Positions 9,550-57,845 of a stretch of DNA of 57,845 nt are shown here, piece by piece. The stretch lies in IMG/VR virus record IMGVR_UViG_3300026518_000668, positions 1 through 57,845 of that record. One strand, given 5' to 3'. Made by a program: the position numbers and the translations under genes. Source of the stretch: a virus. The notes under the pieces were generated by a model that saw nothing but the letters and a program-made list of their open reading frames with translations, was not told the origin of the DNA and ran no database searches. Position 1 is the first letter of the stretch. Each line of letters begins with the position of its first letter.

Positions 9550-12500
9550 CTACTGCTCGCTGCGCAGATACTCCAATCGGCGATCAATCAGGATGCCGTC
9601 AGCCGCCCTCTCCTGGTTCGACTCCCGGGTGTTCACCGACCGAATCAGCGCGCTGTTAGTGATCCGCACTGCTGGGTAGCGCTTGTTGAAGTCTGCAATG
9701 CGCTCCCTGATCCCCGGCAATGCCTCGGTGTCGCCGGTGCGCACGGCCAGCGCGTAGCGGTTGAACAGATACTGGCGCTCACCCTTGATCCGCATCTCTG
9801 CGTTCTTCAGCGCGTTGTTCTGGTCGTAGCGCTGCGCAATGTGCGCCGGCATGAACCCAAGGGCCTGCGCCAGCACACCCCACCCGCCAACCTCATCCAG
9901 CAGCGAGTAGCCGTTGAGCGATTGCACGCCCTCTTCCGAATACCGGACGGCCCGCAACAAGTCTTTGCCGGCCTTGGGTAGCATCGTTTCAAAGCCGCGC
10001 ATCACATGGCCTTCGCCCATCATGCTTGCCCCGGTAAAGGCGTTGGCCACCATGGCCGGGGCAGCGCCCAGCACCTGTTCTACCCAGTACACATAGGCAT
10101 CACGGCCTTCCACCTCACGGTTTGGCGAGAAGAACCAGAGGTGTCCCATACCAATCCGGTCTGTCAGGTTCAGGTCTGCCAGCGTACCCGGCGCGCCCTT
10201 GAAGAACGCCGCGGCAACATCCTCACCCAGCGCTTCGGTCACCGCCCGCTTGATCTTGTCCTCTGCAGTCCAAGGGTCGTCGTCATCGTCCAGGGCGTTC
10301 AGCAGCAACAGCAACGCCTGAGCGCCAGGCACGCCCAGCATGCCGGCCATCAAGGCAAACATGCCGTAGATACCAGCCAGCCGGCGCTTGGCCTCCGCCC
10401 GCAGCTCAGGGGATTCCCCCTTGAGCGACTGCCGGATATCGATAACCAAGCGAGACAGCATGTTGACGCTGTGCTGGCGGAACACCAGAAGCACCTTGGC
10501 AGTATCGCTCTGCATGAAGCGCGCGCGGTTACCGCTGGAGTAGTCGAAGTGGATAGTCCACGTCAGGTCAGCAGCCTCGTTGATAGCGTCCGCGTGCGAG
10601 CGGCCAGCGCCTCGGGCCATGCGATACGCAGCGATCGAGGTAACCTCCCGGTTGTATCGCTCCGCATTATGGAAAGCCCAACTGATGATCCCCATCAGCT
10701 TATGGCGCACTGGGCTGTACTCGGCGCCGGTTTCGCCAACCCCGGCAAGGTCATGGGCCTGCGTCTTGTCGATCAAGCCAAGCCGCATGAACTCGGCAAA
10801 GGCCTCCTGTTCCTCTCCAGTCAGCGCCCGCTCAAGATGGCCCTTACCCTTGATAAAGTCTCGCGACGCCTTCAGCAGCTCAGTCATCGCCTTGGCTTCG
10901 CTCTTGTAGCGCGCGCCCAGCACCGGCACGCCCAGCATGAACGTCTGGGTGGTGTTCACCATGGCCGCCGCCGGCGTAATGCCCAGTTGGTAGGTGAACG
11001 CAGCCGAGGTAATGGTTTGCGCAACCCGGCTGCCTTTCGGGTTCATCACCCACTCATGGCGCCGGCGCAGCTCATTGGCGATGGTCATCGCATCCACCGG
11101 GTCGGTGGCCGCCTGGGCCTGCTCTTCCACCACATCAACCAGCTCGTTCATTTCCAGGCTGTGCTTCAGTCGAGCGATCTGATAAGACGAATGGAACATC
11201 GAGCTGGCAAAGGCCCGCAGCGCATCATCGCTGTAGCCGCTCACCTTCTTCCGGTGAATAAAGCCCTTGCGCATCGAGAAGTCAGGCAACGTATCCAGAT
11301 AGAGTTGGTAAACCTGATCGGCAATCTCATCGGCATTGGGCAGGCGAGACACCAGATCCTGAATATCCGACACAAAGCCAACATCAACGGCGCCCTCCAG
11401 CTCCTGCTTGATCGACTTACGGCCAACCTTCACCTTCATGTCGGGATACTTCGCCCGCATCTGCTCGGCAGCGTCCTCCATCGCCGCCGCCGACTCGAAC
11501 ATGCTGAACGACACCAGCTTCTCACCGTCACGCAGCGCCACAAAATAATCGCCAAAGCGCTTCAGAGGAAAATACGGCTCATCAATGCGCATGCTCTCAA
11601 ACTTCTGCCGCAGCAACAGTACCTTCGACGTAGTCCCGGCCTCTGCCGCCCGCATACGGCCCCGGTACCGCTTCTCCGCAGCATCAATCGCTTCCTGCAG
11701 ATCGTCCCCGGTTAGCTCATCCCGGGCTTGAGTAATCTCGGCGTTGCGCTCCCGGCGCGCCCGGCGCTTGGAAAACTCGACGCTACGGATTACGTTCTGC
11801 TCGATCGCGCTCTCCAGCGTCTGGATCTGCTCCTGATACGCATCGCGCACCTCGTTGAACAGCACCTGCTGCTCTGCTGGCAACGCCTCAAAGCGCTTAC
11901 GCAGCATCTGGTACTTCACCCTGTCAGCCTCATCCTTGCGCGGCTTGCTGGGGTCAATGCCCTCAACCGTAGCGTCGTGCATCAGTTGATCCAGTGCGCG
12001 ATCGGCAGTAACGCCTTTACCCAGCAGCGCCTTGGCCTTGTCGCCCAACGCGCCGGAGGTCAGACGCTGCTTGAGCCAGGCCTGAGCAATGGCATCGTAT
12101 TTGGTGTGCATCTCGTTGCGATCGGCATCCATGGCCCGCTTCTGATCCATATAACCATCAAGGGCAGTCATCCCCTTGGGCGCAAAGTCGCGCAGATACA
12201 TCAGCGGCAGTGCGCCAAGGCCCGCTGGTTTAAGGTCGGCCAGCTTGCCCCGCAGCATCTTGGTCAGGCTCTGCCCCAACGCTGAGCTCGCAATGCCTCG
12301 CGGAATGTTGGATGGCGCCAGGCTGAAGCGAATATCAGGGTTATCTGACTCAAGGTCAGAACTGCCCAGCTCATTCCCGGGCTGCAAGGCACTGTCCACG
12401 TAAAAGGCGGGGCCGGCGTCATTGCGCGCGCTATCAGTTGCCACAGCTGCCTGGCGTGCACGGCGCAACACCAGCGCCAAGTCGGCGGCATCGAGCGTTG

Positions 12501-15500
12501 CCAGCTCGTCGTATCCCTTACGGCGGAACCAGTCACGTACCAGCGCATACCACTCCTGCAGCACGCGCTTGAGGCTACCGGTTGATTCGGCCATATGCGC
12601 CAGCAGCTCGTCCATGATCAACGCACCGCGCTGCCGGTTGGTCAGCCTGTCGTCGTTGAGCGCGCCGGTAATGTAGTGGTCGATGTTAAAGCCCTGTGCC
12701 TGGGCAATGGCCTGCACGCCCTTGATGCCGCCAACCTTCGGCAGCATGCGCACCAGGTGCGACTCCAGGTCCTTGCCATAGCGCTGACGCAGGCCATAAT
12801 GGGCGTAGAATTCATGGAAGATAGCGCGCTCCACATCGCGCTCAGTCGCAAACCGACGGTCAACCAAGTAGGTCTTACCACGCCAATGAACCGCCTTCAC
12901 ATCGCCTGGCAGCGCGCCCTGCGCCGCAGCCGCATCCTTAATCGCCTGCGGCAGCTCTTCCCAGGTCGCGAACACAAAACGACTGGCCACGGTGGGTTCT
13001 GTTACAAGCCGAATGGCGACCTGCTCTACATCCCCCCGGCTGAGCGTGTTGCTGACAGCCCCAGCACCAACCGGCCGGCGGGAGAATAGCGCCACCCCAC
13101 CCTCCTGCTCGCGCGTCTCAACCGTCGCAAACAGCTTGTCGAATGCTTCGCTCACCGGGCCCTGCTCGTCAGGGGTCAAATACGGATAACGCTCAGGCGA
13201 GCGTGAAAACTCTTCCAGCGTCGTGACATTGGCCAGGTAGTCATTACGCGCGCCCTGATCGGCCAGCTTGGCAATAACGTAGGTTTCGAAGGAGCGCGCC
13301 CCGCGCTCGATAATCTGCGACCAGTAGCCTCCCGGCGTCTTGTCTAGAGAGCTCGCACGGATCCGCATCGGCGAGTTATCCAGCGTCTCAACCAGCTCTG
13401 CAAAGGCGCGCTCCACTTCCGGTCTTACGCCTTCAGGGTGCGACGGGGCCGGGTGCCAGGCAGCCGGGTCGTAATACGCCGCCGTCGGGTGGTTCTGGTG
13501 GTACCGGTTCAGCGTAGCCAGGGTGATTGGCTTGCCCCGTCCAGACGTGTGCACATACAGTGGCTCTGGCCGGTACGTGACAAAGTTGTTTCTCAGGTAC
13601 TCGTTCTGCGCCGCTTTGCCGCGGCCCTTCATCGGCACCTCACCACCACGCTTGCGCGAAAAGTAGTTGTCCAGCGCATGAAACCACTCATGTGCCAGGC
13701 TGCCGGCGCCCTTCGTTTTGGTCAGGTTGATAACCACCTGGTCTGGCTCAAAGTGAGCAGCAGCCCACCCGCCCTTACCGCGCGAGCCAAACCCGATACC
13801 CAGCGTACCCTCAAGGCTGAGCGCCTTCGGTGGCACACCCACGACGCCCGCCAGATCCATAAAGGCGTCAAAGGCCTCATTCAGCATGCCCTGGCGTTCA
13901 CGCCCTCCCTTACCCTGGCCAACCCAGTTGCCAAACTCGACACCACGAAAGCCAAACGCCTCCAGAAACTGCTCTGGCGTCACGTCCTGGCCTTCGCGGT
14001 AGTCCTCGCCCACCCTGGGTGCATTGGACCGGCGCCGGGTATCGCTACGGGTCACGTTGTCGCGGTTCTTCACCGCCTCCCAGGCTTCGACCAACTGAGC
14101 ATGGTTGTCCTGCAGATAGGCCTTGGCAGCGTTAACGTCGTCAAAGTCCTTGAGGTGGCGCTTTTCCTTGTCACCGTCCTTGATGATGAACGCCCGACCA
14201 GTGTAAGCGCTGCTGTAGATCGCAAACTTCATTTCCTGCGTAGGCGCGGAATCAGGCGCAAGGACCTTCTTGATGTCGGGCAACGCACTGTCCATCGCGT
14301 CATGCCCACGGAACACCTGCCGGCGCTTATCGATTTCCACCTCAAACCACGACCCCGGCACCATTTCACCGTTCTCGCTGTACCGGCCAGTTCGGTGCTC
14401 AACCCGCCCCACACGCGGCCACTGCGAGCGCTCTACGGCTGCCAGCAACTCAACCTTGTTGGCAAATGAGCGCAGTGCTGGGCTTGCCTTGCGCAGCTCA
14501 GCAAGCGACACGTCAGCACCCAGCGACGCCAGATGACCCAGGGTCAAACGTGCCTCTTTGATCTTGGTTACCCACCGCTGCACCTTGTAAGCAACACGCG
14601 GCTTCGCCGGAATCTCAGACCGCAAAGCCCAATACGCAGCAGCGTGGAAAGGGTCATCAATCTTGTCGATTTCACCCTTCGGCCAAAGCTCGCTCAGGGT
14701 GCTGGCGGCAATGGCTTCATCGTCCATGCTCTCAAGCCGGTCACGCACAGAGCGAAGCTCGTCCTTACGCGCGCCGCCCAGCTTCTCCCCGGCATCCTCA
14801 ACAGCCTCCGGCTCCTTGGCCGCCACCTTCGGCTTGGCAGGTGGTTTTGATGCCGGTGCAGGTGCAGGCGCGGTAGCCTCGGCAGGCGCAGGCGTAGCCG
14901 GGGGCTCAGCCGGCGATTCCTGCTGCGGCTGTGGTTCGGTGTCGGTGGCTTGCTCAGTAGATACGGCGTCCTGGTCAGGCTCGGTGTCAACTTCGCGTGG
15001 GGCCTGCTCAGCGCCATCTTCAGCCGCCTGTTGAGCCGGCGCGACCGGCTCCGCCGCCGTCGCTTCGGGGGGCTGGCTAGCTTCTGGCTCTGGCTCTGGC
15101 TCAACACTCTGAACGGGCGGCGCCGCCTCGGTCGCACCGTCAGCCAGCTCTGAACTCGGGAACTCACGGGCCAAAGGCAACAACTGCTCGATCGGCGCGT
15201 TCAGCCGAATCGCCTTTACCACTTCACCTGCATCGCGCTTAGCCATCCACTGATGGTGGCCATCAAGCACATAACCATCCGCAGACACCAAAATCGAGCG
15301 ATCGCCGCCCTCAAATTTCTTGGCCCGGGCCACCTTCTTGCGCGAGAACTCGGCCTGGGTTGGCCGCAGCTCAGCAGCAGGCATTTCAGTCTGCTCATGG
15401 CCCACGTCGCGGGCCTTGAGAAAATTCACCATCGCGCCCCGGTGCTCGGCCTTGATTTGCGGCATTTCCGCGCGGGGAATCTGTAGCGTGCCCGACTCAG

Positions 15501-17241
15501 GGGTGAAGCGCGCCCAATCGCCATCGATATCGGCGCCAGCAATGGAAGTAACCGCCTCTTGAGGCGCGCCGGCAGGTGCTGCAGGCAGCGGCAAAGCAGA
15601 CTGCTGTGGAGGTGGCACATCTGCCTGCGCGGCAGCGGTGTTCTGCGGTGCCGGGGTAGACGCTGCCGGGACAACGCCTTTCACCACCCCAATTTGCCGG
15701 CGCACCTGCTCCAGTTCGGCCATAGCCTTAAGGCGCTCAGCCGTAACCACGGCATTCCAGCCGTTCTTGTCACCCTGAATAGTCAAATAGGCAACGCGGT
15801 TGCTCAGGTCCGTTTCGTTCTGCCACAAGGCATGGAGCTGCCGTGCGCGGCGGGCCTTGTCCACCAGTGCCGGTTCAGCCTCAGTGTTCTCTGCGGATTC
15901 AGGTGTGCTCGCCTCAGCTTCGGCCCCTTCAAGCTCACCAGGTGCGTCAACGTCGGTTGCCTGCTCCGCAGTTTGCGGCAGAGCAGCGGGCGACCGCGCC
16001 GCAGCAGCAGTAAGGCTGCTGGTACTTTCCTGTCGCTCCGGCAAGGTGCCTGGCGCTGCGCTATCTTCAGCCTCTGCTGCCAGGCTCTGGGCTGCCCTAG
16101 ACAGTGCACCATTTGCAGGGTCCGGCAATTCCACCGGTTCCGGGTTCGGATTCTCAGGTGTAGCCATTGGGCGAACCCGAGTCCGGCCAGCAGTCCAAGC
16201 GGCCTCGGCACCGCTCTGGACCATCGCAAGGAACGACTCAAGCACAGCATCGGTAACATCGCCCTGCCCCGTTGCCGCCATTTCGCCCAGGTATTCACCA
16301 ACGCCCTCGCCGCTGCTTTCCACCGCCAGCAGCACACCACCTTGAGTCGCTTTGCGCCCAAGAGTGTTCACCGACTCAAGGGCAGATTCTTGAGCAGCCT
16401 TAACCGCGGAACTGATCTCTGGCACTTCGCGGGCAGCCAGCACCGCTGCCTGGTCAGCAACATCGATACCGTTGTCGATCAACACCCGGCGTGTGGCAGA
16501 CTCCATTGCCGCCTGCGCCGGCCGCATCATGGCTTTGCTGACTACGCCGCCGATACCCAGAGTTGCGGCGTCAACAGCAGTGATGACACCACCCTTTACC
16601 GCGCCTTCACTCCGGGCTGCCGCCAGCTCTTCCGGGGTAACCTCGCCGTCAGCACCTGCGCTCAGCGCCCGGCTACCCGTTTCCAGCGCAGTGTTACCCA
16701 GGAACAGACCAGCAAGCCCGCCCAGCACACCACCCACAGCAGCACCAACACCGGTACCAAGAACAGGAATCACCGATCCAAGCGCCGCACCACCAGCAGC
16801 GCCAAGCTTCATACCGGCCCACCCGGCACCCAAGGTCACAGCAGCATTGGGGGCATTCTCTGCGACAGCCAGCCCGGCACCAGTCGGCTCATCAGCAATG
16901 GCGCCACCAACAGCCTTTACGCTGTCCCACAGGCCAGCTTCTTCACCAGACTCATCAGCAGCAGCTTGGGCCCGGCTGTCCACGGCGTCATAAAAGCTGG
17001 TGAGCCTGGCATCGCGTGGTGCCGCGCGCTGATCATCGGCAGCCTCAACCAACTCCGCCGTGTCACCCTGATAGGCGTCGACAGCAGCGCCCACAGAGCG
17101 AAAGCTGTTCTTCGCGCCTTCTTTGATGGTGCCAAGCAATCCAACGTCTGTTCTCGGGATATCGTCAAAAGGCCCTGCGGCCTTTTGCTCGGGCGCCTCG
17201 CTCTGGGCACTGCTTTTTAGATCATCGAACAGACCAGACAT
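9550..17241 (-). CDS. giant polyvalent virion protein with ParB-like, LPD, metallopeptidase-like and PLxRFG regions
   Basis: A 2563-residue multidomain protein. Visible regions: a Gly/Ala-rich hydrophobic stretch at about 125-190; a ParB-like nuclease-type segment near 645-690 with DGHHQW; a long Pro/Glu/Ala linker at about 700-830; an LPD5-like region at about 890-1040; an LPD1-like region with the zincin motif HEWFHALDNY near 1185; a second HE-x3-H site (HEFYAHYG) near 1477; the PLKRFG form of the PLxRFG motif near 1890; and a helical LPD38-like C-terminal region from about 2130. Such polyvalent proteins are thought to enter the host with phage DNA. Start ATG 17241 has GAGGTGG in front. It is the largest gene here, with its own promoter-like motif and terminators on both sides. 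Confidence 0.85.
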   Translation of the reverse strand: MSGLFDDLKSSAQSEAPEQKAAGPFDDIPRTDVGLLGTIKEGAKNSFRSVGAAVDAYQGDTAELVEAADDQRAAPRDARLTSFYDAVDSRAQAAADESGEEAGLWDSVKAVGGAIADEPTGAGLAVAENAPNAAVTLGAGWAGMKLGAAGGAALGSVIPVLGTGVGAAVGGVLGGLAGLFLGNTALETGSRALSAGADGEVTPEELAAARSEGAVKGGVITAVDAATLGIGGVVSKAMMRPAQAAMESATRRVLIDNGIDVADQAAVLAAREVPEISSAVKAAQESALESVNTLGRKATQGGVLLAVESSGEGVGEYLGEMAATGQGDVTDAVLESFLAMVQSGAEAAWTAGRTRVRPMATPENPNPEPVELPDPANGALSRAAQSLAAEAEDSAAPGTLPERQESTSSLTAAAARSPAALPQTAEQATDVDAPGELEGAEAEASTPESAENTEAEPALVDKARRARQLHALWQNETDLSNRVAYLTIQGDKNGWNAVVTAERLKAMAELEQVRRQIGVVKGVVPAASTPAPQNTAAAQADVPPPQQSALPLPAAPAGAPQEAVTSIAGADIDGDWARFTPESGTLQIPRAEMPQIKAEHRGAMVNFLKARDVGHEQTEMPAAELRPTQAEFSRKKVARAKKFEGGDRSILVSADGYVLDGHHQWMAKRDAGEVVKAIRLNAPIEQLLPLAREFPSSELADGATEAAPPVQSVEPEPEPEASQPPEATAAEPVAPAQQAAEDGAEQAPREVDTEPDQDAVSTEQATDTEPQPQQESPAEPPATPAPAEATAPAPAPASKPPAKPKVAAKEPEAVEDAGEKLGGARKDELRSVRDRLESMDDEAIAASTLSELWPKGEIDKIDDPFHAAAYWALRSEIPAKPRVAYKVQRWVTKIKEARLTLGHLASLGADVSLAELRKASPALRSFANKVELLAAVERSQWPRVGRVEHRTGRYSENGEMVPGSWFEVEIDKRRQVFRGHDAMDSALPDIKKVLAPDSAPTQEMKFAIYSSAYTGRAFIIKDGDKEKRHLKDFDDVNAAKAYLQDNHAQLVEAWEAVKNRDNVTRSDTRRRSNAPRVGEDYREGQDVTPEQFLEAFGFRGVEFGNWVGQGKGGRERQGMLNEAFDAFMDLAGVVGVPPKALSLEGTLGIGFGSRGKGGWAAAHFEPDQVVINLTKTKGAGSLAHEWFHALDNYFSRKRGGEVPMKGRGKAAQNEYLRNNFVTYRPEPLYVHTSGRGKPITLATLNRYHQNHPTAAYYDPAAWHPAPSHPEGVRPEVERAFAELVETLDNSPMRIRASSLDKTPGGYWSQIIERGARSFETYVIAKLADQGARNDYLANVTTLEEFSRSPERYPYLTPDEQGPVSEAFDKLFATVETREQEGGVALFSRRPVGAGAVSNTLSRGDVEQVAIRLVTEPTVASRFVFATWEELPQAIKDAAAAQGALPGDVKAVHWRGKTYLVDRRFATERDVERAIFHEFYAHYGLRQRYGKDLESHLVRMLPKVGGIKGVQAIAQAQGFNIDHYITGALNDDRLTNRQRGALIMDELLAHMAESTGSLKRVLQEWYALVRDWFRRKGYDELATLDAADLALVLRRARQAAVATDSARNDAGPAFYVDSALQPGNELGSSDLESDNPDIRFSLAPSNIPRGIASSALGQSLTKMLRGKLADLKPAGLGALPLMYLRDFAPKGMTALDGYMDQKRAMDADRNEMHTKYDAIAQAWLKQRLTSGALGDKAKALLGKGVTADRALDQLMHDATVEGIDPSKPRKDEADRVKYQMLRKRFEALPAEQQVLFNEVRDAYQEQIQTLESAIEQNVIRSVEFSKRRARRERNAEITQARDELTGDDLQEAIDAAEKRYRGRMRAAEAGTTSKVLLLRQKFESMRIDEPYFPLKRFGDYFVALRDGEKLVSFSMFESAAAMEDAAEQMRAKYPDMKVKVGRKSIKQELEGAVDVGFVSDIQDLVSRLPNADEIADQVYQLYLDTLPDFSMRKGFIHRKKVSGYSDDALRAFASSMFHSSYQIARLKHSLEMNELVDVVEEQAQAATDPVDAMTIANELRRRHEWVMNPKGSRVAQTITSAAFTYQLGITPAAAMVNTTQTFMLGVPVLGARYKSEAKAMTELLKASRDFIKGKGHLERALTGEEQEAFAEFMRLGLIDKTQAHDLAGVGETGAEYSPVRHKLMGIISWAFHNAERYNREVTSIAAYRMARGAGRSHADAINEAADLTWTIHFDYSSGNRARFMQSDTAKVLLVFRQHSVNMLSRLVIDIRQSLKGESPELRAEAKRRLAGIYGMFALMAGMLGVPGAQALLLLLNALDDDDDPWTAEDKIKRAVTEALGEDVAAAFFKGAPGTLADLNLTDRIGMGHLWFFSPNREVEGRDAYVYWVEQVLGAAPAMVANAFTGASMMGEGHVMRGFETMLPKAGKDLLRAVRYSEEGVQSLNGYSLLDEVGGWGVLAQALGFMPAHIAQRYDQNNALKNAEMRIKGERQYLFNRYALAVRTGDTEALPGIRERIADFNKRYPAVRITNSALIRSVNTRESNQERAADGILIDRRLEYLRSEQ

Positions 17242-17297
17242 AACCACCTCACCAGATCAACTGTCTGGCGAGTGTGTTTTTCAACGATGGGAATGGC

Positions 17298-36455: not shown

Positions 36456-36882
36456 ACTCCCAGCCGCCCTTCGACTTCTTCACCGCGATGAACCGAAACG
36501 GGTACTGATCTGCGGCAACCTTGATCTTCACCCGGGCGTCGTCGGTCCAAACGCCTTTCACTTCATGTATCTCCAGCAGCCCGTCAGCGCGCATCACGTT
36601 GTAATCCGCCGTGTAAAACGTCTTGTCTGCCAGGCGCAACTTGATGCCCTCAAACCGGTACCAAAGAATCTCCCCTGCCGTCAGCAGCAGCTGCAGGTGA
36701 TGCCCATACGCGGTTTCGGTCTTGTTTTTCTGACCCTGTTTGAGCCGCCCCAAGGCCTGCATTCGGCTCTTGGCATTCGCTGCCGGCCGGCGTCCTGGCG
36801 ACCGCGCACCGCCACCTTTCACCGTCGTTCTGCGCAAAACTTCATCCTCTACCTGTAGAAATGCAGCTTTCGGCTGTATCAC
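36439..36882 (-). CDS. DUF1064 phage nuclease-like protein
   Basis: A 147-residue protein with the DUF1064 pattern: NKTETAYGHHLQLLL, WYRFEGIKLRLADKTFYTADYNV, EIHEVKGVWTDDARVKIKVAA and a C-terminal FRFIAVKK. The FYTADYNV-xxx-EIHEVKG block carries the D-x(n)-E-x-K type nuclease residues. It is probably a structure-specific nuclease of recombination or late packaging. Its 5' end overlaps the internal integrase by 41 bases. A TTG start slightly downstream, with GAGGA ahead, is also possible. Confidence 0.78.
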   Translation of the reverse strand: MIQPKAAFLQVEDEVLRRTTVKGGGARSPGRRPAANAKSRMQALGRLKQGQKNKTETAYGHHLQLLLTAGEILWYRFEGIKLRLADKTFYTADYNVMRADGLLEIHEVKGVWTDDARVKIKVAADQYPFRFIAVKKSKGGWEYEYFD

Positions 36883-37852
36883 CCGCCACTACTGGGCTAG
36901 CCGGGTTTTGCAGAAATGCAGGAACAGCTACTTTTGCACCATGTGCGTCAGCAAATCCCAGTTCATCCAGCCGCGCATGCCACCGCTCCAACGCCTCCCG
37001 GCGCCGTGCCAGATCATCCCGGGTCAGGTAGGTTTCCACGGTCACCCCAAGTGAATGGTTCAGCAAGCGCTCGGCTACCGCATGGTCAATGCCAATGTCC
37101 GATAGGCTGTCGCGCATCAGCTTGCGCAGGTCGTGGCTCGTCCACGCCCGGTTGCTGATCCCACGCAGCAGCGCATGCCCGCTTGATGGCGACATAGGCC
37201 CACCACCACGCACCGCAAACATCCAGGTAGCTTTGCGCGCGCTCGGCAGCGCCTCCCGGTACCGCTGCAGCAGGGCCAGGGCCTGCGGAGTCACAGGTAG
37301 CAGGTGCTCACGCTTGCTCTTCGTGTTGCTCGCCGGTATCACCCACATACGCTGGTCCAGCGATACATGCCCCCACTCCGCCAGCAGCGTCTCGGTTATC
37401 CGCGTGCCATGGGCCAGCATCATCAGCGGCAGCATCGCTTTGGGAGGGTCATCGGTGAACGCCCGCACCAGCAGCTCCACCAGGTGCGGCAGGTCAATGC
37501 GTGACAGCTGGGCCGGCTTCGGCGGCAGCTTGCCCTTGTAGAAATCACGGAAGGTCGTACCAGCCAGCGGGTTACCATCAATACGCCCCTGCCGCTCAGC
37601 CATTCGAAATGCCTGGCCAAGCCCCTGCAGCGCCTTCTGGATGGTCCTTGGCTTCAGCACCTCATGCAGCGGAAACACCAGCTGATCATCCATCAGCACC
37701 CGGGTTACCTTGCCGATACGCACCTTCCCAATCGCCGGGATAACGTGCTTGCGCATCAGGCTGCGCATGCTGCGTTGGTACGACGCAGACTTGGTCCTGT
37801 CCGCCTCGATCCGCGAAAGCCACCAGGTGACCACATCCCCAACAGTGCGCAT
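36842..37852 (-). CDS. second tyrosine recombinase, inside the replication module
   Basis: A 336-residue tyrosine recombinase with the full catalytic set visible: Arg I in THGTRITETLL, HxxR in HDLRKLMRD, a second His in LLNHSLG and the nucleophile Tyr in ETYLTRDD. ATG 37852 follows GAGG 7 bases away. It sits between the P-like replication gene and the DUF1064 nuclease, far from the xis/int unit at the other end. In lambdoid phages this slot often holds Holliday-junction resolvases, so a role in replication-intermediate resolution is plausible. The window thus encodes two intact tyrosine recombinases. Confidence 0.82.
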   Translation of the reverse strand: MRTVGDVVTWWLSRIEADRTKSASYQRSMRSLMRKHVIPAIGKVRIGKVTRVLMDDQLVFPLHEVLKPRTIQKALQGLGQAFRMAERQGRIDGNPLAGTTFRDFYKGKLPPKPAQLSRIDLPHLVELLVRAFTDDPPKAMLPLMMLAHGTRITETLLAEWGHVSLDQRMWVIPASNTKSKREHLLPVTPQALALLQRYREALPSARKATWMFAVRGGGPMSPSSGHALLRGISNRAWTSHDLRKLMRDSLSDIGIDHAVAERLLNHSLGVTVETYLTRDDLARRREALERWHARLDELGFADAHGAKVAVPAFLQNPASPVVAGDTAESCISTGRG

Positions 37853-37862
37853 AAGCCTCGCC

Positions 37863-38006
37863 TCAGCCAACGTAAACCTCCAGTAACCTGTGCCCGCCAA
37901 ATCGGTCGACGCAGCCAGCAATGACCTGCTCCAGCGTCGCGCCCGCCATGTAGATCGCCGTACCGCCAGAGCCATCCACCAAGCGGAACCTGAAGCGCTT
38001 GCTCAC
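37863..38006 (-). CDS. very small phage protein between P and the recombinase
   Basis: A 47-codon reading frame starting at GTG 38006 right next to the P gene stop, and ending 10 bases before the recombinase ATG. The product begins MSKRFRFRLVDGSGG and ends with RFGGHRLLEVYV, a pattern seen in small phage proteins of about 50 residues. GAG/GGTG purines lie close upstream. It is packed into the operon with almost no spacing, supporting translation. An alternative GTG start lies 15 bases earlier. Confidence 0.5.
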   Translation of the reverse strand: MSKRFRFRLVDGSGGTAIYMAGATLEQVIAGCVDRFGGHRLLEVYVG

Positions 38007-40417: not shown

Positions 40418-41167
40418 ATGACCAAGAAACGCCCACTACCGCCAGACCGAGCAGCCGAGTGCGATGCTGCGCACGAACTCTTTTTGGCCAAAAAGAAACA
40501 ACTGGGCCTTAGCCAAAGATCACTGGCCGAGGTGGCCGGGATTACACCTGCGGCAGTGAACCTCTATTTCAAGGGCGTCAACGCGCTGAACGTGCAGTTC
40601 GCCGCGGTGCTGGCGAGTGAACTGCGCTCGCCAATTGAGAGCTTCAGTCCAAGGCTTGCCAGGGAGGCAGAAATGATCAGCAAGGCAGTTAACTCAACCG
40701 GCAACGTAATAACCGCAGACTTCACCAAAAAGGCGCTGCGCGACGGTGAGCTGCACATCACGCAGTACGACCTGCGGGCCGCCATGGGCGGCGGCCAGTT
40801 ACCGGCCGACTATCTGGAAGTGCTGCGGGAGGTCACCATCCACCGCTCGTTCTTCGAGGCAGCGGGAGTCAGCTACTCAAGCGCATCCAAGTTGGCGTTG
40901 GTCACAGGGTGGGGCCAGAGCATGGAAGGCACCATCAATCATGGCGACCCGGTGTTCGTTGACTACGGCGTCACGTCGTTTGTCTCCGATGGCGTGTACC
41001 TGTTCACCTGGGACAACCTCGCCTACATCAAGCGTGTCCAGAAGATCAGCAAAACTGAGCTGAAAATCATCTCGGATAACCGCAACCATGACCCCTTCGT
41101 CGTCAATGCTGAAGACGTGACCTTTCACGCCCGGGCAATCATGGTCTGGAACGGCAAGAAGCTCTGA
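40418..41167 (+). CDS. CI-like repressor, HTH plus S24 peptidase
   Basis: A 249-residue repressor. The N-terminal helix-turn-helix is LGLSQRSLAEVAGITPAAVNLYF. The C-terminal LexA/CI-type domain has the catalytic Ser in GWGQSMEG (near residue 170) and Lys in LAYIKRV (near 207). I do not see the usual Ala-Gly cleavage pair in the linker, where AAMGGG is the nearest segment. No ribosome-binding site lies before ATG 40418, and a TATAGA -10 is so close that the mRNA is likely leaderless, as in lambda PRM. It should repress both operator clusters. Confidence 0.88.
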   Translation: MTKKRPLPPDRAAECDAAHELFLAKKKQLGLSQRSLAEVAGITPAAVNLYFKGVNALNVQFAAVLASELRSPIESFSPRLAREAEMISKAVNSTGNVITADFTKKALRDGELHITQYDLRAAMGGGQLPADYLEVLREVTIHRSFFEAAGVSYSSASKLALVTGWGQSMEGTINHGDPVFVDYGVTSFVSDGVYLFTWDNLAYIKRVQKISKTELKIISDNRNHDPFVVNAEDVTFHARAIMVWNGKKL

Positions 41168-48403: not shown

Positions 48404-49570
48404 ATGAACCACCAGATACTGATCGGCGACTGCATCGACATGATGCGCACCCTGCCGGATGAGAGCGTGCACACCTGTATCACAAGCCCACCCTATTTCG
48501 GCCTACGGGATTACGGAGTGGATGGGCAGATTGGGCTGGAACAATCGCCCGCCGAGTTCATCCAGCGCCTGGTTGAGGTGTTTCGTGAGGTGCGCCGAGT
48601 GTTGCGCAAAGACGGTACGGCTTGGGTGAACATGGGTGACAGCTATGCCGGCAGCTGGGGCGGGCATGGTCATGACGACATGGGGATCGGTGTATCGGCT
48701 CTGAGTCAGCGACAAGTGATGGCCAGTCGGCGCAAGGACAAGAAGGTAGGACATTACGGCTTCAAACCTAAGGACTTGATGGGAATGCCTTGGCGCCTGG
48801 CTTTCGCTCTGCAGGACGATGGCTGGTATCTGCGGCAGGACATCATCTGGCACAAACCAAACCCAATGCCAGAGAGCACCAAAGACCGTTGCACAAAGGC
48901 GCACGAATATCTCTTCCTACTGAGCAAAAGTCGGCGCTACTACTACGACAACGATGCCATCAGAGAGCCATCCAACATGAGCGGTGGCAGCACGCGTCCC
49001 ACCAATGGTGTTGGATGGGGTCACGGCACCGATGCCAAGAAACGAAATCGTGAGCGGGTCACTGTGCCGAAAGGCTGGGACACCAGCACCGGCGAAGGCG
49101 GACACGGCGGCTATCACAAGGACGGTGCAGCGCGAGGCAGCAAGCGAAACAGCTTTGCCAGGGAATCGAAGTACAGCGCTGGTGAACATGGCCAGAAAGC
49201 TCAGCATCGCCCCGACCGAGCCGATGTTGACTATAGCGAGACCCGCAACAAGCGCAGCGTCTGGACAGTGGCCACCCACGCATTCAAAGAAGCCCATTTC
49301 GCAACCTTCCCGCCCGACCTGATACGCCCTTGCGTGTTGGCTGGTTCACCGCGCGGTGGCGTGGTGCTGGATCCGTTCGGCGGCGCCGGTACCACAGGTC
49401 TTGTAGCAATGCAGGAAGGTCGCCGGTCGATCCTTTGTGAACTCAACCCAGAATACGCCGCAATGGCGCGCGCCCGGCTAGATAAAGCGTGGATCGAAGG
49501 CGCGGCACAGATGGACATTCTGATGGATATGCCGGCACCGGACCAACCCAAGTCTGCCCAGTCAGCATGA
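48404..49570 (+). CDS. DNA methyltransferase, N4-cytosine/N6-adenine type
   Basis: A 388-residue amino-methyltransferase. Motif IV is TSPPYFGLRDYG near residue 28 and motif I is DPFGGAGTTGLVAM near 325, so the catalytic motif precedes the AdoMet motif: a beta-type order. TSPPY is common in N4-cytosine enzymes. A region of about 100 residues in the middle, Arg/Gly-rich, could be the target-recognition part. No restriction endonuclease is adjacent, so it likely protects phage DNA or alters gene control. Confidence 0.88.
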   Translation: MNHQILIGDCIDMMRTLPDESVHTCITSPPYFGLRDYGVDGQIGLEQSPAEFIQRLVEVFREVRRVLRKDGTAWVNMGDSYAGSWGGHGHDDMGIGVSALSQRQVMASRRKDKKVGHYGFKPKDLMGMPWRLAFALQDDGWYLRQDIIWHKPNPMPESTKDRCTKAHEYLFLLSKSRRYYYDNDAIREPSNMSGGSTRPTNGVGWGHGTDAKKRNRERVTVPKGWDTSTGEGGHGGYHKDGAARGSKRNSFARESKYSAGEHGQKAQHRPDRADVDYSETRNKRSVWTVATHAFKEAHFATFPPDLIRPCVLAGSPRGGVVLDPFGGAGTTGLVAMQEGRRSILCELNPEYAAMARARLDKAWIEGAAQMDILMDMPAPDQPKSAQSA

Positions 49571-49663: not shown

Positions 49664-51317
49664 ATGACCATCGACTACGGATCGGTGTGCAGCGGCATCG
49701 AGTCGGTGTCGGTTGCAGTGCACCCGCTCGGCTGGACGCCTACATGGTTCTCCGAGATTGAACCGTTCCCCTCCGCGGTGCTGGCACACCGGTTTCCCGA
49801 GGTGCCGAACCACGGCGACATGACGCTGCTGCCGGCCAAGGTTTTGACCGGTGCGATCCCTGCGCCAAGCCTGCTGGTTGGCGGCACACCATGCCAAGCG
49901 TTCTCCGTTGCAGGCATGCGCGCCGGCCTCGAAGACCCGCGCGGCAAACTCACTATCAAGTTCGTGGAGCTCGCAGATGCAATTGACCATGTTCGAACAG
50001 CCCGAGGCGATGACGAGTGCGTCGTCTGGTGGGAAAACGTCCCCGGTGTCCTCAGCGACAAAGGCAATGCGTTTGGCTGCTTCCTCGGTGCCCTGGTGGG
50101 CGAATCCTCAGCGCTACAGCCGTCAGGGGGAAGATGGACGGACGCTGGTTGTGTGTATGGACCCGAAAGAACAGCAGCATGGCGGGTGCTGGATGCCCAA
50201 TATTTCGGCCTGGCCCAACGACGCCGCCGTGTGTTCGTTGTCGCAAGTGCTCGAAGAGGGTTCGATCCCGCAGCGGTACTCTTTGAGTCCGAAGGCCTGC
50301 GCAGGGATACTCCGCCGCGCCGAGGCGAGGGGCAAGACATTGCCGGAACAGTTACTGCGAGCCTTGGTCGCCGTGGCGGAGCGCCAGACTGCGCAAGCAC
50401 ACCCGGACAGCTCCAGCCAGTCACCTGCATGGCACACGGACAGGGGGGGGGGGGGGGCAGAAATAGCCGAGGGCAGAAGCCCGACGCTGACCTGCAACCA
50501 CGAGGCTCCGATAGTCGTCCACGGAACCCAAGACCCTGATGTCCGAAGAGATCAGGCGCATACGCTCGGAAGAAACAACGGCGCAGAAAATGCCGTACTG
50601 ACCGTATCTCTGCGTGGTCGCGAGGGTGGGGCTACCGCAGAGCTTGGCGATGATGTTGCCGGATGCCTGCGGGCCTCCTCCGGAGGGGGAGACAAACCGC
50701 ACGTCTTAGCTCCCATCGCCTTCAGTTGCAAAGACCACGCGGCCGACGCCGGAGAGCTTTCACCCACCCTGCGCGCGATGGGTCATGGGGATAGTCACGC
50801 CAATGCTGGTGGGCAGGTTGCTGTATGCGTTACCGGTGAAATCACCCACACCCTCAAGGCAGAGGGCTTTGACGCCAGCGAAGATGGCACCGGACGCGGG
50901 CAGCCGATCGTCACGCACGCCATCCAAGCAGGCGCACTTCGGACCAACCCGGCAAGCGGCCCGGACGGGGTCGGAGTTCAAGCGGATCATGCTTACACCC
51001 TGGAAGCTCGCTCCGAGGTGCAAGCAATCCAGAGCGCTAGCGCTGTGCGAAGACTTACGCCCAGGGAGTGTGAGCGCCTACAGGGCTTCCCTGACGACTG
51101 GACGTTAATTCCGTTTGGACGGGTCATCCGCCCAGAGAAGCTTGACGTCGACTTCGCCAAGTACCTGATGCGCGGCGGCTCGATGACTTTTGAGCAGTGC
51201 CTGGAAGCTGCCGCCGACGGCCCGCGCTACAAAGCGATCGGCAATAGCAAAGCCGTTTTCTGCGTCCGCTGGATCGCACGACGCATCGACAACCACATTC
51301 AGAGGCTGAATCCATGA
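49664..51317 (+). CDS. C5-cytosine DNA methyltransferase interrupted at a G15 tract
   Basis: As read, the frame from ATG 49664 (GAGG ahead) stops at 50539 after 291 residues, and the C-terminal part continues in another frame to 51317. The N-terminal part has motif I (YGSVCSGIES), the catalytic PCQ loop (GGTPCQAFSVAG), ENV (WWENVPGV) and motif VIII (QRRRRVFVVAS). The C-terminal part has motif IX (RRLTPRECERLQGFPDDW) and motif X (YKAIGNSKAVFCV). The break falls exactly in a run of 15 G at 50443-50457; with 14 G the two parts join into one 550-residue enzyme. The variable region contains degenerate TL-x-A repeats of about 25-30 residues. This could be phase variation or a sequencing length error. 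Confidence 0.85.
50443..50457 (+). repeat. poly-G tract of 15 inside the C5 methyltransferase
   Basis: A run of fifteen G residues within the coding frame. Codon phase upstream and downstream differs by one, so removing one base (or adding two) restores the complete enzyme. Long homopolymers are classic slipped-strand switches in restriction-modification genes. Confidence 0.95.
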
Positions 51318-56479: not shown

Positions 56480-56709
56480 CAAAAGTCATTACGCATAACA
56501 GTATCAACATGCCCCGGCTGATGGAGGCCGGGGAGTACCGCAAGCTGCGCTATGCTGGGAAGGAGCCCAGCTTGCAGAAGCTGAAAAAGTGGATCGACGA
56601 GGGTGTCGTTGTGGGCGAGATTAAGGGTGGCGTGTACTTCGTGGATCTGCAGGCCGAGTTGCTGGGGTCCGATGACGAGCTGCTGGCCAAGATGGTTCAG
56701 GTGGCGTAA
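56476..56709 (+). CDS. xis: excisionase-like protein
   Basis: A 77-residue protein (MAKVITHNSINMPRLMEAGEYRK) with a helix-turn-helix/winged pattern (EPSLQKLKKWIDEGVVVGEI) typical of Xis-type DNA-bending factors. ATG 56476 has GGGAGGT about 8 bases upstream. Its TAA overlaps the integrase ATG (TAATG), so the two are coupled. It would direct the integrase toward excision. Confidence 0.75.
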   Translation: MAKVITHNSINMPRLMEAGEYRKLRYAGKEPSLQKLKKWIDEGVVVGEIKGGVYFVDLQAELLGSDDELLAKMVQVA

Positions 56710-57845
56710 TGGCTCCCCGCAAACGCACGGTCACAAATCGGGACCTGCCCCCGAACCTGTACCCAAACGGCAAATACTGGCAGTACCGCAACCCTATCAC
56801 TGGAAAGAAGACCAGCATCAATCGGCCACTGGCCGATGCCATCAAGTTAGCCCGGGCGGCGAACGCCAAGTTATTGCCGCTGGCCGCCGATGAAAAGCTG
56901 TTACGGGCAATCACCGGAGAGCAGGCGCCTACAGTGCAGCACCTGATCGAGCGGTTCGATATCGAGTGGCTTGCCGGCCGCAAGCTGGCCGAGTCTACGC
57001 GCAAAGAAATCCGCATCAAGCTCGCCCGGTACATCAAGGAGCTCGGCAAGCGCATGATCGGGCAGCTTGACGTGCTCGCCATGGCTGAATACCTCGACCA
57101 GTTCCAGAACAACGCCTACACAAAGCACCGCGGCTTGTGGGTACAGGTGTGCGCGTTTGGCGTGGCCAAGGGCCTGATGGAGCGCAACGTGGCCGAGCTG
57201 ACCCTGGTTAAGAAGGAGGCCGAGAAGGTGCGCCGGCGCCACACCAAAGAGGGCGTCGAGAAGATATTGGCAGCCGACACCACCCCGCCCTGGCTGAAAC
57301 TGGCGATTCGGCTGGCCCTCCTGTCGTTGCAGCGCCGCGAGGACTTGGTCACATGGGAGCGGTCAGCCGTCGACCTGGAGGCAAATACCATCAGGCTAAG
57401 CCCGGGCAAGACCGAAAACTACACCAGCCCCATCCACCTTGAGATTGAAATGGGGGCCGACCTGCGCCAGGTGGTGCGCGAGTGCATGGCGGTGCCGATC
57501 GCAAGCCCGTTCCTGCTGTGCTACCGCCCCAGGGCGCGCAAGCGCGAGCAAATCGAAGCCAAGGCGCACTGGTCTGCCATTACGGATGACTACCTGACCA
57601 AAGAGTTCGCCAAAGCCAGAGACGCCTGCCGCGCCTACGACGACATTGCCGAAAAGCGGGCCCGCCCATCAGTGCACGAACTGCGGGCGCTGGGTGCCTG
57701 GCTGTACGAGCAGCAGGGTTTCCCGGGTGAGTATGTGCAGGCTCTGATGGGGCATGCTGACGGCAAGATGACGACCTACTACCAGAGTGGTCACGGCGAG
57801 CAGCAGGTCGAATACGTGAGGGTATCTGCAGGGTTAAAACTTTAA
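56709..57845 (+). CDS. int: tyrosine integrase
   Basis: A 378-residue integrase with an Arm-type N-terminus (NLYPNGKYWQYRNPITGKKT), a core-binding region and a catalytic domain. Arg I lies in LLSLQRREDLVTWE, HELRALG contains the HxxR motif, LMGHADGKMT carries the second His, and YYQSG carries the Tyr nucleophile. The stop codon is the last base of the window, so the attachment site must lie beyond or across the circle junction. It is intact and co-expressed with xis. Confidence 0.9.
   Translation: MAPRKRTVTNRDLPPNLYPNGKYWQYRNPITGKKTSINRPLADAIKLARAANAKLLPLAADEKLLRAITGEQAPTVQHLIERFDIEWLAGRKLAESTRKEIRIKLARYIKELGKRMIGQLDVLAMAEYLDQFQNNAYTKHRGLWVQVCAFGVAKGLMERNVAELTLVKKEAEKVRRRHTKEGVEKILAADTTPPWLKLAIRLALLSLQRREDLVTWERSAVDLEANTIRLSPGKTENYTSPIHLEIEMGADLRQVVRECMAVPIASPFLLCYRPRARKREQIEAKAHWSAITDDYLTKEFAKARDACRAYDDIAEKRARPSVHELRALGAWLYEQQGFPGEYVQALMGHADGKMTTYYQSGHGEQQVEYVRVSAGLKL

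Follow-up and report, generated by a model that had tools for sequence, protein, structure and literature searches.

Allelic evidence for probable phase variation at a poly-G tract in a modular phage C5 methyltransferase gene with a conserved nested frame

The window, a virus record assembled to 57,845 bases, contains a C5-cytosine methyltransferase gene (49664-51317) whose reading frame is interrupted at a run of 15 G. Comparison with relatives suggests that the break probably reflects phase variation by strand slippage in a prophage methyltransferase whose target region is a shuffled set of several modules, and this is the best explanation that we can offer. Judged from its conservation among homologues, a second frame nested in the methyltransferase core (frame b) is very probably a real protein-coding gene. 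Phase-variable methyltransferases are a known class, and what would be new here is their placement in temperate phages, in a modular C5 enzyme and together with an overlapping conserved gene. The features discussed are collected in Table 1.

Table 1. Positions of the methyltransferase gene parts, the nested frame and selected phage genes in the window
Feature	Position	Strand	Basis
CI-like repressor	40418..41167	+	PF00717, PF01381, phrog_4
N4/N6 DNA methyltransferase, intact	48404..49570	+	PF01555 E=2e-50; phrog_67
Frame a, C5-cytosine methyltransferase core, motifs I-VIII, 291 codons	49664..50539	+	PF00145, phrog_116
GGAG Shine-Dalgarno-like site, 7 bases 5' of ATG 49977	49966..49969	+	sequence
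Nested frame b, +1 to the core, 446 codons at G15	49977..51317	+	ATG 49977, stop 51317
Conserved C-terminal domain of frame b (SLSQVLE..IP..Y.LSPKACAGILRRAE.RGK.LP..L..AL)	50238..50381	+	near-invariant columns; predicted helices
G15 tract, frame break	50443-50457	+	sequence; G6/G7/G8 at same codon in L082/L165/L083
C-terminal half: variable-region modules, then motifs IX and X	50460..51317	+	phrog_26324 E=2.8e-70
Motif IX region (RRLTPRECERLQGFPD)	51024..51107	+	PF00145 profile positions 269-295
Lambda-type integrase	56709..57845	+	PF00589, PF09003

The broken frame and its tract-length alleles

The core of the enzyme is encoded by frame a, which terminates 82 bases past the tract and has homologues of 60-98% identity. 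Its translation contains the motifs PCQAF, WENVPG and QRRRRVFV, and residues 7-195, covering motifs I-VIII, match the Pfam DNA_methylase profile (E=2.5e-22), with a further match to phrog_116 at E=1.6e-57. The C-terminal half is out of frame with this core and in frame with nested frame b; it shows its own PF00145 match (E=2.6e-6) and a motif X that reads GNSKAV. Motifs IX and X of the window allele lie in another frame and are not on the same polypeptide as the core. They are on one chain with the core in the relative L083 and in 116 of 125 homologues. When the predicted model of the in-frame L083 protein was used as a Foldseek query it matched M.HhaI, M.HaeIII and DNMT1, with the variable region of the model not resolved.

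The frame breaks exactly at the G15 tract, with the two halves in different frames, as had been described initially. Elsewhere in the window no homopolymer is longer than 8, and base composition predicts only about 2e-4 runs of G15. The core and the C-terminal half are joined only when the tract length is 2 mod 3, so that G14 gives a predicted protein of 550 aa, the length that the initial annotation had given for one base fewer, and G17 one of 551 aa. The count of 15 in the window could differ by one base as a result of assembly.

Close relatives carry four different lengths at this one codon, G15 in the window, G6 in L082, G7 in L165 and G8 in L083. Specifically, L082, on a 467-kb contig of P. 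abyssi MT5, is out of frame at G6 and encodes a protein 98% identical to that of the window 5' of the tract; the size of its contig suggests that it is presumably a prophage in Pseudomonas abyssi. L165, a 40-kb virus contig, is also out of frame, in the phase opposite to that of L082, and L083, from a Pseudomonadaceae metagenome-assembled genome (MAG), has a single frame of 502 aa. The tract begins 779 bases from the start codon in three of the alleles and 773 bases from it in L083. Thus a long simple-sequence tract lies within the reading frame and its length varies among relatives with both in-frame and out-of-frame outcomes, which is the pattern of phase-variable genes. Farther homologues have a MAHGQGGAEI module with mixed or interrupted glycine codons (GGC/GGT) that is in frame. 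Since these distant mixed-codon homologues stay in frame, the pure tract appears to have arisen by silent drift and to have been altered in length later. No further carriers of the window tract were found among 399 Pseudomonadaceae genomes and viral contigs, and L268, picked up by a pattern match to the downstream flank, proved unrelated. The evidence at this site consists of four alleles, three of them out of frame, of which L082 and L165 might be plain losses since G6 and G7 slip far less than G15.

A second G tract has arisen independently in a compact sister subfamily of 313 aa, within a stretch that reads HPTLTAQGGG. This stretch is usually coded GGGGGAGG or similar, and such interrupted alleles are in frame, a figure that is partly conditioned because the second pattern scan admitted in-frame-compatible lengths only. 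Five contigs carry pure-G alleles at this second site, three of which (G7, G9 and G10) are out of frame and two of which (both G8) are in frame. Across the 125 homologues, where the unconditioned count of intact reading frames is 116, frames are broken in 4 of 8 that have G/C runs of at least 8 versus 5 of 117 that do not (Fisher p=8e-4). In the variable region, runs of this kind are about 6-fold more frequent than expected (8 versus 1.4; p=2e-5); both p-values are only approximate since the homologues are phylogenetically non-independent. Three homologues (L017, L112 and L117) have frames broken away from any tract. L117, which has a G8 run, was excluded from the tract evidence as its frame is already lost 5' of that run.

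In regards to the variable region (50300-51040 in the window), comparison among homologues L002-L161 revealed a mosaic of at least 7 exchangeable modules that occur in 41 module orders, with 10 module pairs found in both orders. The window string is ABCDEF, that of L165 is ABGDEF and that of L082 is ABGEF, and module content differs even between relatives that are 94-98% identical. Every module contains a T-L pair. Consecutive exchangeable modules in the variable region are the layout of multispecific phage C5 methyltransferases, and by analogy with these the modules would recognize DNA targets. When the C-terminal halves of the three out-of-frame alleles were compared, there were no stops and 68 synonymous versus 14 nonsynonymous differences (dN/dS 0.044, range 0.037-0.056). 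These values indicate purifying selection, although the modules of this half are exchangeable and part of the low dN/dS may stem from recent acquisition from in-frame donors.

From these alleles we infer slippage as the mutational route. The variable region of this temperate phage enzyme would be an array of exchangeable target-recognition-like modules, the first of which contains the pure G tract (Q-G-G-A codons drifted to CAGGGGGGGGCA) that would slip at replication. Lengths of 2 mod 3, such as G8 in L083 and 14 or 17 in the window, would yield a single full-length enzyme (methylation ON), whereas other lengths would cut off the core ahead of motifs IX-X (OFF), leaving the prophage or virion population a mix of methylating and non-methylating members. 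The core would double as template for a nested frame b protein made from its own ATG and ribosome-binding site, and at 0 mod 3, as in the window, the C-terminal half would be read as an extension of frame b. Switching of methyltransferases by poly-G tracts is established, for example at a G9 tract in a type III methyltransferase gene of H. pylori (PMC12003011). The slipped-strand switch proposed in the initial annotation is well supported by the varied lengths at two sites, but that account holds only in part and had overlooked frame b, the C-terminal half fused to it and the module array.

A conserved frame nested in the core

The conserved part of frame b itself covers approximately 49977-50400 (about 140 codons) and in the window it is fused through the tract to the C-terminal half. 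Relative to a null in which synonymous codons of frame a were resampled, frame b is open in 145 of 146 homologues versus a mean of 42 expected (maximum 57 in 200 runs), with 1 stop observed where 184 are expected. Its ATG is present in 140 of the 146 (51 expected), a GGAG precedes this ATG in 113, and its length is 135-151 codons in most homologues; 5' of the ATG the same +1 frame is open in none of the 146. The identity of fourfold third bases of frame a is 33-49% over most of the region 5' of the ATG (0.43) and rises to 78-95% inside the overlap at 50204-50338. Frame b thus combines openness beyond expectation with suppressed synonymous change in the host frame, two marks of an overlapping gene. 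Similarity is also somewhat raised in the +2 frame, as third-base constraint of any kind would do, but that frame contains 450 stops. Constraint at the RNA level is a less likely cause of the conservation, as the signal is specific to this frame in its openness, its start, its ribosome-binding site and its length. As a candidate for a conserved overlapping gene, frame b ranks among the clearest that we could test. AlphaFold predicted disorder in the N-terminal half and a C-terminal domain of two helices, with confidence only over the last approximately 50 residues (helices at pLDDT 70-85), and a Foldseek search of this model against the PDB returned no significant match.

Frame b is also kept in phages of Vibrio, in P1, and in phages of Mycobacterium and gut Firmicutes (homologues L179, L180, L181, L183, L184, L186 and L187). 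The similarity of its protein between the window and distant phages exceeds the null in 7 of 9 comparisons (z=3.6-10), including Vibrio (8.0), Terrisporobacter (5.0), P1 (4.9), Mycobacterium (4.4) and Ruminococcus (4.1), with weaker values for Caulobacter (2.8) and Streptococcus (1.4). The control stretch 5' of the frame b ATG gave z values near 0 (TC7 2.5).

None of the 10 annotated records that we examined lists frame b as a gene of its own. It lies within genes as well known as P1 dmt, and we found no mention of the nested gene in the open-access literature. Profile searches of frame b gave no match in Pfam or NCBIfam and, for the window copy, no significant match in PHROGs; one other member matched phrog_16143 (E=3.7e-4). 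The only methyltransferase profile matches came from a misframed row (L162) of one alignment (A1) and were disregarded. In the Faecalibacterium phage FP_Toutatis (L178 2126-2731), frame a runs into frame b in one open frame, so that an annotated methyltransferase CDS closes with the end of frame b and the half with motifs IX-X is a separate gene, a natural break unlike the G tract. The C5 methyltransferase is likewise annotated as two genes in the Omegavirus-type Mycobacterium phages Porcelain (L181 2062-3262) and Schatzie (L182). The first methyltransferase part of Schatzie contains an inserted HNH endonuclease, for which the annotators fixed no boundaries.

Alternative readings of the out-of-frame alleles

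The tract phase determines what the C-terminal half is joined to, the core at 2 mod 3, frame b at 0 mod 3 and neither at 1 mod 3. The frame b-joined product is 446 aa in the window and 383 aa in L082, while the C-terminal half of L165 is joined to neither. The state called OFF could therefore be a two-chain enzyme, as the 0 mod 3 layout matches the splits of known enzymes: the variable region is where M.AquI is divided, with motifs I-VIII on one chain and IX-X on the other, and fragments of M.SssI complement best if the cut falls after motif VIII and ahead of the target domain (PMC3404938). Frame a would then supply motifs I-VIII, a second chain started at the nested ATG would supply frame b, the modules and motifs IX-X, and the tract would toggle between a one-chain and a two-chain enzyme with only the third phase truly null. 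Frame b is continuous with motif IX in the window (G15), in L082 (G6), and in L039 and L128, the conserved nested ATG and GGAG give the C-terminal half a built-in start, and Porcelain has the same enzyme as two annotated genes. However, selection for the b-joined phase is not apparent, with four tract-broken alleles joined to frame b and three joined to neither (L165 at G7, L272 at G10 and L273 at G7, the latter two assigned from tract phase), and in almost every homologue that reads in frame, frame b stops short of the C-terminal half. The lack of phase bias among these seven alleles places such an enzyme below plain ON/OFF switching, and we regard it as unlikely.

A broader proposal, that the tract is a three-way frame switch over a dual-coding gene, giving the C-terminal half to the core, to frame b or to neither, and that frame b is an unrecognized conserved gene which overlaps the C5 methyltransferases of phages that infect Proteobacteria, Actinobacteria and Firmicutes, is as a whole rather doubtful. 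Under it the frame b-joined product may be a two-chain or a re-targeted enzyme.

The initial annotation had offered a simple sequencing error as its alternative, with the true allele in frame. A G15 run is hard to call and the window is an assembled record, but the easily sequenced G6 and G7 alleles, which come from independent assemblies, do not read in frame either, and the different site in five other contigs behaves alike. A homopolymer error is thus disfavored and seems improbable to us. Still less probable is decay of the gene, in which the frameshift was an irreversible loss and the C-terminal half is still open by recent luck. This would suit the fact that just one of the four alleles at the site is unbroken and that three homologues are broken away from any tract; against it, the great majority of homologues are intact, both halves are open and conserved in all three broken alleles, and the window keeps a pure G tract that is 7 longer than needed. 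Long homopolymers can promote polymerase and ribosome slippage, a general background that would allow some full-length enzyme to be made if the ribosome underwent programmed frameshifting, or the polymerase slipped in transcription, at the G run. However, the shift required at G15 and G6 is in one direction, that at G7 is in the other and L083 requires none, so that no single programmed shift fits all relatives and this mechanism is very improbable as a common one.

Known systems and phage context

Slipped-strand phase variation, the reading that we prefer, has its nearest likeness in the poly-G methyltransferases of Helicobacter, Campylobacter and Neisseria (phasevarions; H. pylori HPK5 G9, PMC12003011), which share with the window an uninterrupted G tract within the methyltransferase reading frame, in-frame and out-of-frame lengths among relatives and a truncated product when out of frame. 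The window differs from these in that the enzyme is of the C5 type and belongs to a temperate phage of Pseudomonas-type background with no linked restriction enzyme seen, in that a nested gene overlaps the core, and in that switching is inferred from alleles of relatives. In module layout the window enzyme also resembles those of the Bacillus subtilis phages SPR, phi3T and rho11s (Trautner et al. 1996, as cited in PMC12707154), which are multispecific and likewise have a phage C5 core with consecutive exchangeable modules in the variable region; the window is unlike them in having a slippage tract inside the array. Among the split enzymes M.AquI and M.EcoHK31I (PMC3404938), it is the division of M.AquI that the window matches at G15, with motifs I-VIII in one part and the rest of the variable region and motifs IX-X in the other, and the second part of the window enzyme begins in an overlapping frame. 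Unlike in these two enzymes, the split in the window is set by tract length and is not fixed, most homologues are one chain, and any two-part activity is putative. Finally, the Dmt protein of phage P1 has a homologous C5 core (57.6% identity) in which frame b is open too, but it has a Dam domain after the C5 part and no G tract.

Methyltransferases that switch through homopolymers are known from bacterial chromosomes. The comparative data would extend such switching to temperate phages, where it would have arisen on two independent occasions, in an enzyme made of shuffled modules that resemble target-recognition units. Were this so, a prophage would vary its methylation in occurrence and in target alike, which would matter for evading host restriction and for the expression of host genes.

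That the phage is temperate, as stated initially, is borne out by its CI-like repressor and lambda-type integrase, and the record also encodes a terminase and a portal. The N4/N6 gene (48404-49570, +) lies directly 5' of the C5 gene, so that the phage has two DNA methyltransferases in tandem. There are also two distinct integrase genes in the record (36842-37975, -, and 56709-57845, +), one of which sits between terminase and helicase-loader genes. In addition, a protein of 2565 aa (9550-17247, -) contains the large polyvalent protein domains LPD39, LPD5 and LPD1.
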